Below, in pieces: positions 396 through 9,005 of a DNA stretch of 64,000 nucleotides. Origin of the DNA: Clostridia bacterium (lineage in GTDB: Bacteria; Bacillota; Clostridia; Christensenellales; Aristaeellaceae). The DNA lies in NCBI GenBank assembly GCA_017549335.1, contig JAFYVB010000003.1:1-64000 (forward strand), read 5' to 3'. Numbering within the stretch: position 1 is the first letter of the stretch; each line of letters starts with the position of its first letter. The position numbers were made by a program, and so were the translations under genes. Under the pieces are notes generated by a model. That model was given only the letters and a program-made list of their open reading frames with translations. It was not told where the DNA came from and made no database searches.

Positions 396-938
396 TTACG
401 CTTCAAAATCAAAGCCCAGTTTGATGGCCTGCTTGTTCAGATCCAGCAAATTGGCGTGCTTGGCGGAAACCACCTTGCTCAGGACCTGATCCACCAGCGC
501 ATCGTCAGCCAGATCCACTTCGCGCAGGAGGCGGCCGATGAGCAGCATATTTGCCAGCGTTTTCACACCGGCGTCGGTGGCCATCTTGGTGGCGGGAACG
601 GCGCAGTATTTCACGTCATCACGGGCGGGCTCACGGGAGATCAGCGAGGAATCGTAGATCACCGTGCCGCCGGCGTTCATCGCGGGCTCGAACTTATCCA
701 TGCTGGGCAGGTTCATGGCGATGAGCACGTCGGGATGGGTGATGATGGGCGAGCCGATGGGGCTGTCGGAAATGATCACCGAGCAGCTGGCGGTGCCGCC
801 GCGCATTTCGGGGCCGTAGGAAGGCAGCCAGCTGACTTCCAGACCCTGCAGAAGGCCGGCATACGCCAGGAATTTGCCCGCAAACAGCGCGCCCTGACCG
901 CCGAAGCCCGAGATCAGAATCTGCTTTGTACCTTTCAT
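396..938 (-). CDS. 2-oxoacid:ferredoxin oxidoreductase, gamma subunit (VOR type)
   Basis: A 180-residue protein of the pyruvate/ketoisovalerate oxidoreductase catalytic-domain gamma family. The GFGGQG motif at residues 11-16 and the following segment ending SYGPEMRGG are typical. With the three upstream subunits it forms a cytoplasmic complex that interconverts a 2-oxoacid plus CoA and an acyl-CoA plus CO2, exchanging electrons with ferredoxin. Its start overlaps the end of the beta-subunit gene by 4 bases (ATGA), so the two are translationally coupled. It is the last gene of the operon that starts at 8686. Linked ilvE and a leucine-type T-box favour branched-chain 2-oxoacids (VorC role) over pyruvate or 2-oxoglutarate, but the sequence alone does not fix the substrate. 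Confidence 0.9.
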   Translation of the reverse strand: MKGTKQILISGFGGQGALFAGKFLAYAGLLQGLEVSWLPSYGPEMRGGTASCSVIISDSPIGSPIITHPDVLIAMNLPSMDKFEPAMNAGGTVIYDSSLISREPARDDVKYCAVPATKMATDAGVKTLANMLLIGRLLREVDLADDALVDQVLSKVVSAKHANLLDLNKQAIKLGFDFEA

Positions 939-1684
939 TTTTCCGCCTCCCCGTATTTATCCTTGTACACACCCAGCGGGTAGTAGGGGATCATGTTGGT
1001 GTCGATCCATTCCAGCGCCTGCTGAGGCGTCATGCCCCAGTTGGTGGGGCAGGAGGAGATCACTTCGATCAGCGAGAAGCCCTTACCCTCGATCTGATTG
1101 CGGAAAGCCTTGACAATGGCCTTCTTGGCGGCGCGAACGTTCTTGACGTTGTTGACGGCAACGCGCTCAAGGTAAGTGGCGCCGTCCACCTTGCTGAGCA
1201 TTTCGCAAACCTTCACGGGGAAACCGACGGTGGCGGTATCGCGTCCGTAGGGCGAGGTCTGGGTGACCTGACCGGGCAGCGAGGTGGGCGCCATCTGACC
1301 GCCGGTCATGCCGTAAATGGCGTTATTGACGAAGATCACGGTGATGTTTTCACCGCGGGCAGCGGAATGCACGGTCTCCGCCGTGCCGATAGCTGCCAGG
1401 TCGCCGTCGCCCTGATAGGTGAAGACGATTTTGCCGGGATCGGCACGCTTGATGCCGGTGGCTACGGCGGGTGCACGGCCGTGAGCGGCCTCCACCATGT
1501 CGCAGTTGAAATAATTGTAGGCGAATACCGCGCAGCCAACGGGCGCAACGCCGATGGTATCGCCGGTGACCTTCAGTTCTTCCAGCGCTTCGGCTACCAG
1601 ACGGTGGATAATGCCGTGGGTGCAGCCGGGGCAGTAATGCATGGGCGCATCGGTGAGCGCCTTGGGCTTTTCAAAAACGATCAT
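935..1684 (-). CDS. 2-oxoacid:ferredoxin oxidoreductase, beta subunit (TPP-binding)
   Basis: A 249-residue thiamine-diphosphate-binding subunit. The metal/TPP motif GDGD is at residues 92-95 and is followed by NNAIYGMTGG at about 120-129, the signature of KorB/VorA/PorB beta subunits. CPGC at 18-21 is the usual N-terminal cysteine pair. It carries the site where the 2-oxoacid is decarboxylated or, in reverse, where acyl-CoA is reductively carboxylated. It overlaps both neighbours by 4 bases. Length and motifs are normal, so it should be active. Assignment to a branched-chain enzyme rests on the neighbouring ilvE and the operon's leucine-type leader. Confidence 0.92.
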   Translation of the reverse strand: MIVFEKPKALTDAPMHYCPGCTHGIIHRLVAEALEELKVTGDTIGVAPVGCAVFAYNYFNCDMVEAAHGRAPAVATGIKRADPGKIVFTYQGDGDLAAIGTAETVHSAARGENITVIFVNNAIYGMTGGQMAPTSLPGQVTQTSPYGRDTATVGFPVKVCEMLSKVDGATYLERVAVNNVKNVRAAKKAIVKAFRNQIEGKGFSLIEVISSCPTNWGMTPQQALEWIDTNMIPYYPLGVYKDKYGEAEK

Positions 1685-2748
1685 TCGGCTGTACCTCCCA
1701 TCTTTGCGGCTTCGTCCAGCTTCGCAAGTACTTCATCGGGCGAGGGGATCATGCCGCCCACGCGGGCGCAGCACAGAACGGGGCGCTTGCAGCGGATGGC
1801 AAGCTCGATATCCTCCACCATCTGTCCCATGGACATTTCCACGGATACGAAAGTGTGGCACTTGTCGGCGGCCTTCTTCAGCACGTCCTTGGGGAAGGGC
1901 CACAGGGTGATGGGACGGATCATGCCCACCTTCATGCCCTTTTCACGGGCGGCGTTCACGGCGTTTTTCGCCACGCGGGCGCATACGCCGAAGGCGACCA
2001 CGCAGATTTCCGCATCCTCCATGCGGTACTCTTCGTAGCGCACTTCGTTTTCTTCCACCACCTTGTAGCGCTCGTAGCGTTCAAGGTTCTGGCGCTCCAG
2101 CTCTTCAGCCTGCAGCGACAGGGAGGTGATGATGTTAGGCTTGCGCTCCCACTTGTGGCCCACCGTCGCCCAATCCTTGACGGCCTCGCAGAGCTCGCCG
2201 AAGTCAAGGCTGACGGGCTCCATCATCTGACCGATGGTTCCGTCGGTGAGGATCATGACGGTCATGCGGTATTCGTCCGCCAGATCAAAGCCCAGGAAGG
2301 TCAGGGAAGCCATTTCCTGCACGGAGGCAGGCGCCAGCACGATGCGGCGGAAATCGCCGTGGCCCAGCGCCTTGGTGGCCTGGAAATAGTCGGACTGGGA
2401 GGGCTGGATGCCGCCCAGACCGGGACCGCCGCGCTGTACGTTCACCACCAGCGCAGGCAGATCACAGCCGGCGAGGTAGGAGATGCCTTCGCTCTTCAGG
2501 GAAATTCCGGGAGAGGAAGAGGAGGTCATGGTGCGCTTGCCGGCAGCGGAGGTGCCGATCACCATGTTGATGGCGGCGATTTCGCTTTCCGCCTGCAGGA
2601 ACACGCCGCCGATCTTGGGCATGCGCTTGGCCATGTAGGCGGCTACTTCGGTCTGGGGGGTGATGGGATAGCCGTAATAATGACGGCAGCCCGCCATGAT
2701 GGCGGCTTCGGCGAGGGCTTCATTGCCCTTCATGAGTACTTTTTCCAT
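1681..2748 (-). CDS. 2-oxoacid:ferredoxin oxidoreductase, alpha subunit (VorB type)
   Basis: A 355-residue alpha subunit with the pyrimidine-binding and transketolase C-terminal type domains of the PorA/VorB/KorA family. YPITPQTE at residues 27-34 is the family signature near the N-terminus. The start lies 1 base past the ferredoxin-subunit stop codon; its Shine-Dalgarno site (GGGAGG) is inside the end of that gene. The 3' end overlaps the beta-subunit gene. Separate alpha, beta, gamma and delta polypeptides in the order delta-alpha-beta-gamma are typical of VOR and KOR enzymes of Clostridia and archaea. The context supports 3-methyl-2-oxobutanoate and related branched oxoacids as substrate. 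Confidence 0.9.
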   Translation of the reverse strand: MEKVLMKGNEALAEAAIMAGCRHYYGYPITPQTEVAAYMAKRMPKIGGVFLQAESEIAAINMVIGTSAAGKRTMTSSSSPGISLKSEGISYLAGCDLPALVVNVQRGGPGLGGIQPSQSDYFQATKALGHGDFRRIVLAPASVQEMASLTFLGFDLADEYRMTVMILTDGTIGQMMEPVSLDFGELCEAVKDWATVGHKWERKPNIITSLSLQAEELERQNLERYERYKVVEENEVRYEEYRMEDAEICVVAFGVCARVAKNAVNAAREKGMKVGMIRPITLWPFPKDVLKKAADKCHTFVSVEMSMGQMVEDIELAIRCKRPVLCCARVGGMIPSPDEVLAKLDEAAKMGGTAE

Positions 2749-2749
2749 G

Positions 2750-2965
2750 TTATTTGGCCTCCCTTTCCACGGTGATCACGCAATCGGGGCACATGATCGC
2801 GCAGGAAGCGCAGCCGATGCACTTTTCCATATCGGTGACCTGTGCAGGGCGATAGCCCTTCTGGTTGATGGCGCTGTCAGACAGGGAAACAATGCCCTTG
2901 GGGCAGGCTGCCACGCACAGCGCGCAGCCCTTGCAGCGTTCGGTATCAAAGGTTACTTTTGCCAT
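2750..2965 (-). CDS. 2-oxoacid:ferredoxin oxidoreductase, delta subunit (2x[4Fe-4S])
   Basis: A 71-residue bacterial-type ferredoxin with two CxxCxxCxxxC clusters (CKGCALCVAACP and CIGCASCAIMCP). In VOR/POR complexes this subunit carries electrons between the TPP site on the beta subunit and external ferredoxin. AAAGAGGTG precedes the ATG at a normal distance. It sits 30 bases after the P-loop ATPase gene and directly before the alpha subunit. A free ferredoxin would look similar, but its position as first of four contiguous VOR subunit genes makes the subunit role much more likely. Confidence 0.9.
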   Translation of the reverse strand: MAKVTFDTERCKGCALCVAACPKGIVSLSDSAINQKGYRPAQVTDMEKCIGCASCAIMCPDCVITVEREAK

Positions 2966-2995
2966 AACGCACCTCTTTCTCTGATGGTGAGTTTG

Positions 2996-8686: not shown

Positions 8687-8700
8687 GGTTTTCCTCCATT
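8684..8700 (-). promoter_or_regulatory. Ribosome binding site fixing the start of the LeuA-like gene
   Basis: On the minus strand GGAGG stands about 7 bases before the ATG at 8686, just beyond the T-box terminator hairpin. It would be reached only by transcripts that escape termination. Confidence 0.7.
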
Positions 8701-8710
8701 TTCCGGAATC

Positions 8711-8968
8711 AAAAAGTCCCCAAAGCCAAAGGCTTCAGGGACGATATAATCTGTATACCGCGGTACCACCCAAATTCCCGCAAAGCGGGCACTCAAGCTC
8801 CATTAAGCTGTTTGCCGTGGTAACGGGGCAAGACCGGGAGCCCTTACTGCAATTTTCAGGGTTCCTGCTCGGGAAGGAGATCGCATCCGCCGCTGCACAC
8901 CGGCTTGCACCAACCGCCGGCTCTCTTTGCTGCCGTACGACGAAGCGTAGTTCCGTCATCGCAATATA
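8711..8968 (-). promoter_or_regulatory. T-box leader, leucine type (specifier CTC)
   Basis: On the minus strand the T-box core GGGTGGTACCGCGG lies at 8758-8771. It is followed by an intrinsic terminator (GTCCCTGAAGCC, loop, GGCTTTGGGGAC, then five T) at 8711-8742. Stem I starts near 8965 and has the AGAGAG and GGTTGGTGCAAGCC elements. In all three T-boxes of this window the specifier candidate stands exactly five bases before CGAGC. For the pheS leader this gives TTC (Phe), as it should; here it gives CTC (Leu). Uncharged leucyl tRNA should permit transcription of the operon at 8686-396. Confidence 0.88.
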
Positions 8969-8975
8969 TATGAGA

Positions 8976-9005
8976 AATATAGCAGAAAAACAGGGGGAAT
9001 GTCAA
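8976..9005 (-). promoter_or_regulatory. Promoter of the leucine T-box operon
   Basis: Minus-strand -35 TTGACA (9000-9005), 18-base spacer, -10 TATATT (8976-8981), immediately upstream of the T-box stem I. Confidence 0.75.

Follow-up and report, generated by a model that had tools for sequence, protein, structure and literature searches.

The Leucine T-Box Operon

The DNA analyzed here, a stretch of 64,000 nucleotides referred to as the window, comprises bases 1–64000 of contig 41 (JAFYVB010000003.1) of a Clostridia bacterium of the family Aristaeellaceae, the genome of which spans 2.09 Mb in 41 contigs and is 86% complete. Near one end of the window, a T-box leader with a Leu specifier precedes eight co-directional genes on the minus strand (8686–396; successive gaps of -4, 42, -8, 30, 1, -4, and -4 nucleotides) that encode a LeuA-like pseudoenzyme, here called psLeuA, an acyl-CoA synthetase fusion, the aminotransferase IlvE, a P-loop ATPase, and the four subunits of a VOR-type enzyme. 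We think it very likely, from sequence comparisons, that this operon makes leucine from isovalerate. Its features, all on the minus strand, are as follows.

8968–8734, minus strand: T-box leader (RF00230; cmscan 100.8 bits against a gathering threshold of 93, E 4.8e-21)
8879–8877, minus strand: Leu specifier CUC, on which the pairing rule and the fixed-offset rule agree
About 8738–8771, minus strand: antiterminator
8742–8711, minus strand: terminator hairpin and U5, by folding
7277–8686, minus strand: psLeuA, an HMGL-like barrel with a LeuA_dimer domain (PF08502 111 bits, PF00682 80 bits)
4776–7280, minus strand: fusion of an AP_endonuc_2-type TIM barrel and an AMP-forming acyl-CoA synthetase (Pfam)
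3666–4733, minus strand: branched-chain aminotransferase IlvE (NF009897 488 bits, TIGR01123 408 bits, both above cut-off)
2996–3673, minus strand: P-loop ATPase, CbiA/ParA-like (Pfam matches under cut-off)
2750–2965, minus strand: VOR delta subunit, with two 4Fe-4S ferredoxin domains (Pfam Fer4 families)
1681–2748, minus strand: VOR alpha subunit, VorB (NF005507 526 bits, above the cut-off of 399)
935–1684, minus strand: VOR beta subunit, with a thiamine pyrophosphate (TPP) domain (PF02775 74.7 bits; under NCBIfam cut-offs)
396–938, minus strand: VOR gamma subunit (PF01558 POR 124 bits; under NCBIfam cut-offs)

These searches agree in most respects with a preliminary description of the locus, which had reported a T-box with specifier CTC ahead of eight tightly packed genes and, among them, the synthetase fusion, IlvE, and four VOR-type subunits: the leader passes RF00230, no gap falls outside -8 to 42 nucleotides, and the Pfam and NCBIfam matches bear out the enzymes. 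The count of eight genes stands as well, and to it we add a name for the first, LeuA-like gene and a second T-box at 11986–11756 that had been missed.

A T-box with a Leu specifier is switched on under leucine shortage, and we infer from the T-box class that the leader responds to tRNA-Leu. The 5′ arm of the terminator hairpin pairs with the T-box sequence, so that a terminator/antiterminator switch is present, and the terminator stretch (8778–8697) is more stable than all of 200 shuffles (z -3.4). Stem I by itself folds no better than shuffles (z 1.15), and identification of the leader rests on the covariance model. The specifier was taken as the three bases that lie upstream of the lower stem's 3′ strand at a distance of one base, a rule first framed on the pheS, ileS, and cysE T-boxes. 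The same genome holds 13 T-boxes at E of at most 0.001, five of them above the Rfam cut-off. Eight T-boxes of this genome, which precede genes named independently by NCBIfam, served as controls; they include the three on which the rule was framed, and all eight were read correctly (pheS UUC, ileS AUC, cysE UGC, leuS CUC, alaS GCC, serS UCC, nondiscriminating aspS GAC, and an aminotransferase-like gene followed by tyrS, UAC). Six came from the pairing rule and the other two, aspS and leuS, from the fixed-offset rule; when first read by hand, the aspS T-box had given an uncertain result (“?Gly”).

Several features of the surroundings may be recorded here. The N-terminal 265 residues of the fusion protein (7280–4776) form a xylose-isomerase-like TIM barrel ahead of the synthetase, also in the relatives examined, and the P-loop ATPase gene accompanies VOR genes in relatives. 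An intergenic repeat of ~350 bp lies in inverted orientation on either side of the operon (9050–9400 and 108–374). The genome has 43 matches to it, of which 18 are at least 200 bases long.

psLeuA

The leucine-binding LeuA_dimer domain of psLeuA is recognized well above threshold (111 bits for PF08502 vs. 24.9), and the best NCBIfam LeuA score, 246.6 bits, falls short of its cut-off of 532. The motifs RDGEQ and HxHND are absent from all 110 copies of psLeuA collected (102 unique at 98%), whereas in the same family, true LeuA proteins carry RDGEQ in 20/20 cases and HxHND in 19/20, the exception reading HCHDD. With its catalytic motifs lost, psLeuA is by motifs not an isopropylmalate synthase. 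Mean identity among psLeuA copies is 41% in the barrel and 71% in the dimer domain, the reverse of true LeuA (66% and 58%, respectively); because the two sets differ in breadth, the reversal within each set weighs more than the levels themselves. This pattern of conservation points to the leucine-binding half. A search of solved structures with the LeuA_dimer part gave a weak match only (3f6g, E 0.25).

We therefore advance, as a tentative proposal with a little less than an even chance of being right, that psLeuA is a pseudoenzyme leucine sensor regulating the adjoining synthetase. In an evolutionary form of the proposal, held just as tentatively, loss of the classical leucine pathway left its first enzyme in place as a sensor, which may bind leucine through its LeuA domain and allosterically shut the adjoining isovaleryl-CoA synthetase. 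The first gene might instead encode an active enzyme that has no sensory role and catalyzes some other reaction, one without a metal, and the barrel residues D141, R144, and D169, retained in 110/110 copies, are what such an enzyme might keep. However, no copy retains the RDGEQ or HxHND site, conservation is lower in the barrel than in the other half, and no such step is needed in the pathway proposed here, so that we consider an enzymatic role for psLeuA unlikely.

T-Box Specifiers in Related Genomes

Of 150 genomes of the family, 57 encode a psLeuA-type protein at a threshold, set by us from the search results, of about 180 bits; class-wide, single full-length matches of at least 470 bits, counted by score alone and not by motifs, occur in 34 of 291. 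The psLeuA gene adjoins an AP_endonuc_2-type gene in 20/20 loci of one set and in 80/80 loci of a second, named set; the synthetase fusion follows psLeuA in 20/20 of the former and in 76 of the latter, the other four of which end within 1.5 kb. One locus with a Leu T-box, psLeuA, and the fusion synthetase is L180 of Bittarella massiliensis GD6, and L171 comes from Lachnospiraceae LC2019. A T-box core precedes the psLeuA-type gene in 26 of 30 family loci, the present copy included, and in 55 of the 80 named loci, of which two lie at contig edges and 23 are without one.

The preliminary description had suggested comparing T-boxes among related genomes, and the comparison agrees with its reading. 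Of these 81 T-boxes, drawn from two sets that share genomes, two are cut by contig ends and 79/79 readable ones specify Leu (CUC or CUG), a number that includes repeats given the redundancy of the 110 psLeuA sequences. At least one automatic rule supplied 77 of the Leu readings, and two were made by hand only (L166 and L181). At scores of at least 15 the pairing rule read Leu in 66/66 cases, its non-Leu readings at scores of 11–12 having been set aside (L052, L152, L178, L181, and L186); the fixed-offset rule read Leu in 70 of 77 and other codons in seven, six of which are Leu by the pairing rule. The reading of specifiers is the weak joint of this analysis.

Six loci (L133, L136, L142, L166, L175, and L177) bring Ile, Val, and Leu T-boxes together in one cluster. 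The VOR genes are more mobile: they lie within the Leu operon in some loci (e.g., L057, L059, L112, and L128) and behind the Val ligase in the six just named. A VOR alpha subunit is present in 20 of the 36 loci that extend 9 kb or more to each side.

Short leucine-rich reading frames lie upstream of five psLeuA genes without a T-box (L116, L121, L138, L139, and L145). A test for such leaders, run after a first look, covered 19 of the 23 T-box-less named loci, with L118 (near-identical to L116) and L144, L146, and L185 (relaxed cores) left out; five of the 19 gave p<0.05, and the combined p was 0.018 for leucine vs. 0.74–1.0 for five other amino acids. As a lead only, these frames may be ribosome-mediated attenuators where the T-box is missing.

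Separate Ligases under Valine and Isoleucine T-Boxes

The next gene upstream of the operon encodes a second ligase of a different type, with a T-box of its own.

11756–11986, minus strand: second T-box, Val specifier GUC by both rules (81.8 bits, E 2.9e-18, under the gathering threshold of 93)
9416–11713, minus strand: helix-turn-helix (HTH)–cupin–AMP-forming acyl-CoA synthetase, MbcS-like (Pfam; best NCBIfam match MbcS, 416 bits)

We propose that this HTH-cupin protein is an isobutyryl-CoA synthetase. A paralog on contig 18 (L011, L016) has a T-box reading AUC, for Ile. Neither the Val ligase (416 bits) nor the Ile ligase (464 bits) reaches the MbcS equivalog cut-off (NF047394, 850 bits), and the two are MbcS-like, not members of that family. 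Across all loci there are 67 HTH-cupin genes. A T-box core precedes 43 of them and specifies Ile in 22 cases and Val in 21; the 24 that lack one comprise 20 short unfused genes, two first genes that start at the edge of the available sequence of their loci (L151 and L179), and L082 and L107, the last from the nearest relative of the genome studied here. The pairing rule, at scores of at least 15, gave Val or Ile in 38 of 39 cases, and the fixed-offset rule in 36 of 42. The odd one, L081, reads GCG by the pairing rule, TTC by fixed offset, and GUA by hand, and is one of four of the 43 read by hand only, together with L133 (the first), L142, and L175 (the Val ones). In a tree of 42 ligases, the root of which is meaningless because the outgroup is very distant, the specifier labels change five times, compared with a mean of 16.5 for shuffled labels and with none of 200 shuffles as low; Val labels within the Ile clade belong to L078, L079, and L081.

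All specifiers were read before the substrates of Staphylococcus aureus MbcS were compared. The apparent KM of that enzyme is <10 uM for 2-methylbutyrate and isobutyrate and >500 uM for isovalerate, according to the part of the report consulted (PMC10026030). That MbcS barely uses isovalerate fits the occurrence of MbcS-like ligases under Val and Ile T-boxes and of another ligase type under Leu T-boxes.

Classical Pathway Genes

The preliminary description had also proposed a search of the genome for genes of the classical branched-chain pathway, and none of ilvC, ilvD, and leuB was found, leuB being judged at the cut-off (the only match has E 4e-4); as the genome is 86% complete, these absences are provisional. 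ilvC was found in 0/11 genomes of the genus, this one included, and in 14/14 control genomes. In the family, leuB over the cut-off is present in 3 of 57 genomes with psLeuA vs. 40 of 93 others (Fisher p 2e-7), or 5 of 57 vs. 42 of 93 if four strong sub-cut-off matches are counted (p 1.5e-6), and ilvC in 13 of 57 vs. 38 of 93 (p 0.03); these p values take the genomes as independent, uncorrected for relatedness. Ten genomes combine a psLeuA-type protein and ilvC (one a fragment) with no leuB over the cut-off, as expected if valine and isoleucine were made classically and leucine from isovalerate.

Proposed Function of the Operon

In the mechanism we propose, a fall in charged tRNA-Leu would let uncharged tRNA-Leu stabilize the antiterminator of the CUC T-box, as in other members of the T-box class, and transcription would go on. 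The fusion synthetase, probably an isovaleryl-CoA synthetase, would then use ATP to convert isovalerate to isovaleryl-CoA, VOR with reduced ferredoxin would carboxylate this to 2-oxoisocaproate, and IlvE, by its family assignment, would aminate the product to leucine. Valine and isoleucine would be made with the same VOR and IlvE and with the MbcS-like ligases under their own T-boxes. The psLeuA protein, catalytically dead and equipped with a leucine-binding domain, probably reports leucine to the adjoining synthetase, which would constitute a second, protein-level feedback.

The evidence from sequence favors synthesis on four counts: the Leu T-boxes, the sibling T-boxes for Val and Ile, the failure to find ilvC, ilvD, and leuB, and the finding of a single VOR, since the POR_N proteins of the genome number three (a NifJ-type enzyme, the operon VOR, and IorA). 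The earlier suggestion that branched-chain amino acids are made here by reductive carboxylation is thus supported. Its corollary, that the operon activates branched short-chain acids, can be refined: isovalerate is probably its substrate, and isobutyrate and 2-methylbutyrate are assigned to separate ligases under separate T-boxes.

Several observations weigh against synthesis from isovalerate, or against parts of it. Within the genus, 6 of 11 genomes do carry ilvD, and among the 57 psLeuA genomes, the 13 with ilvC and 3 with leuB over the cut-off are joined by 2 more with a strong partial leuB. No strict T-box core was found in 23 of the 78 named loci with upstream sequence, three of which have a relaxed one, nor in family loci L035, L041, and L042. 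No VOR alpha subunit appears in 16 of the 36 long loci within the stretch available; in L058 its place is taken by a NifJ-type enzyme scoring 1724 bits, above the pyruvate oxidoreductase cut-off of 911, and L075 carries a gene resembling it. Finally, that psLeuA binds leucine or contacts the synthetase is something we only infer.

The operon could alternatively be catabolic, with leucine transaminated, VOR oxidizing 2-oxoisocaproate to isovaleryl-CoA with a yield of reduced ferredoxin, and the synthetase running backwards. This is how VOR, IlvE, and acyl-CoA ligases are usually annotated, and VOR chemistry is reversible. However, a Leu T-box turns genes on at leucine shortage, as the 79/79 readings in relatives would imply here, AMP-forming synthetases favor acyl-CoA formation, and leuB is seldom found in psLeuA genomes, all of which makes catabolism improbable. 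More improbable still is a role in membrane lipids, for which the operon would provide branched acyl-CoA primers and VOR would be of minor importance. In S. aureus, MbcS does function in making branched fatty acids (PMC10026030, as consulted in part), but control through aminoacyl-tRNA, separate Leu, Val, and Ile specifiers, and IlvE and VOR genes in the same operon all speak against such a role here.

Possible Aromatic Counterparts

Two further loci of the genome resemble the operon in outline. On contig 25 (L014, 1378–8706), a Tyr T-box reading UAC is followed by genes for an acyl-CoA ligase, a sodium:solute symporter (SSS), IorA, IorB, a PaaK-type ligase, and an ACT-domain protein, a cluster for which tyrosine synthesis from 4-hydroxyphenylacetate is possible. 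On contig 41, at about 82–84 kb (L017, 9911–8166), a T-box that reads UCA by the automatic rules and UUC (Phe) by hand is followed by genes for a PaaK-type ligase and an ACT protein. For the Phe-type T-box (L007), the UCA given by both rules was overruled in favor of UUC because the pheS-type T-boxes L114 and L167 share its GAAGUUC layout. IorA and IorB pass their NCBIfam cut-offs, and the PaaK-type proteins, at 512 and 470 bits vs. 646, do not. Chorismate synthase is present in 11/11 genomes of the genus. Prephenate dehydratase, which 5/11 of them have, did not turn up in the genome studied here, so that the aromatic case is less clear.

Relation to Known Systems

If these proposals are correct, a broad group of Clostridia would use scavenged acids to make leucine, valine, and isoleucine, and perhaps also phenylalanine and tyrosine with the help of ACT-domain proteins, and every branch would have a separate RNA switch and a separate protein sensor. 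Genomes without ilvC and leuB would be taken for auxotrophs, and operons of this kind would be scored as catabolic. The T-box codons provide an internal label for the acid expected of each ligase across scores of genomes (two records are not labeled as metagenome-assembled genomes), and enzyme specificity, cross-feeding of branched acids, and the real amino acid needs of many uncultured bacteria become directly testable.

Each component has a known counterpart. The VOR resembles 2-oxoisovalerate:ferredoxin oxidoreductase (NF005507) in its four-subunit layout and its alpha subunit above the family cut-off; here, however, it stands behind a Leu T-box (Val or Ile T-boxes in relatives) and together with acid:CoA ligases. 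LeuA shares the HMGL-like and LeuA_dimer domains with psLeuA, in which, unlike LeuA, the catalytic motifs are lost in all 110 copies and conservation has shifted to the regulatory domain. S. aureus MbcS (NF047394) is the best NCBIfam match of the HTH-cupin ligases, and its substrates isobutyrate and 2-methylbutyrate fit their Val and Ile T-boxes; the ligases differ from it in the HTH-cupin fusion, T-box control, a score under the cut-off, and a proposed role in amino acid synthesis, and the passages on MbcS in PMC10026030 mention neither a T-box nor a riboswitch. Amino acid genes under T-box control (PMC2494555, consulted in part) are alike in having a T-box with a matching specifier, and in the main text of that survey a term search returned no ferredoxin, CoA, aminotransferase, or ilvE. 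Searches of the open-access literature returned, with the terms chosen, no paper that connects T-boxes to VOR, IOR, or PaaK and none on an isopropylmalate synthase pseudoenzyme with leucine.

The chemistry is already known from rumen work of the 1960s; the T-box wiring and pseudo-LeuA did not turn up in the open-access papers that were searched. Rumen anaerobes carry out reductive carboxylation of isovalerate, isobutyrate, and 2-methylbutyrate (Allison and co-workers, via PMC7356843, consulted in part), the same acids, with the same proposed products, as here. Whereas the titles of that work concern physiology, the present analysis contributes genes, an assignment of ligases, and amino-acid-specific control by RNA.

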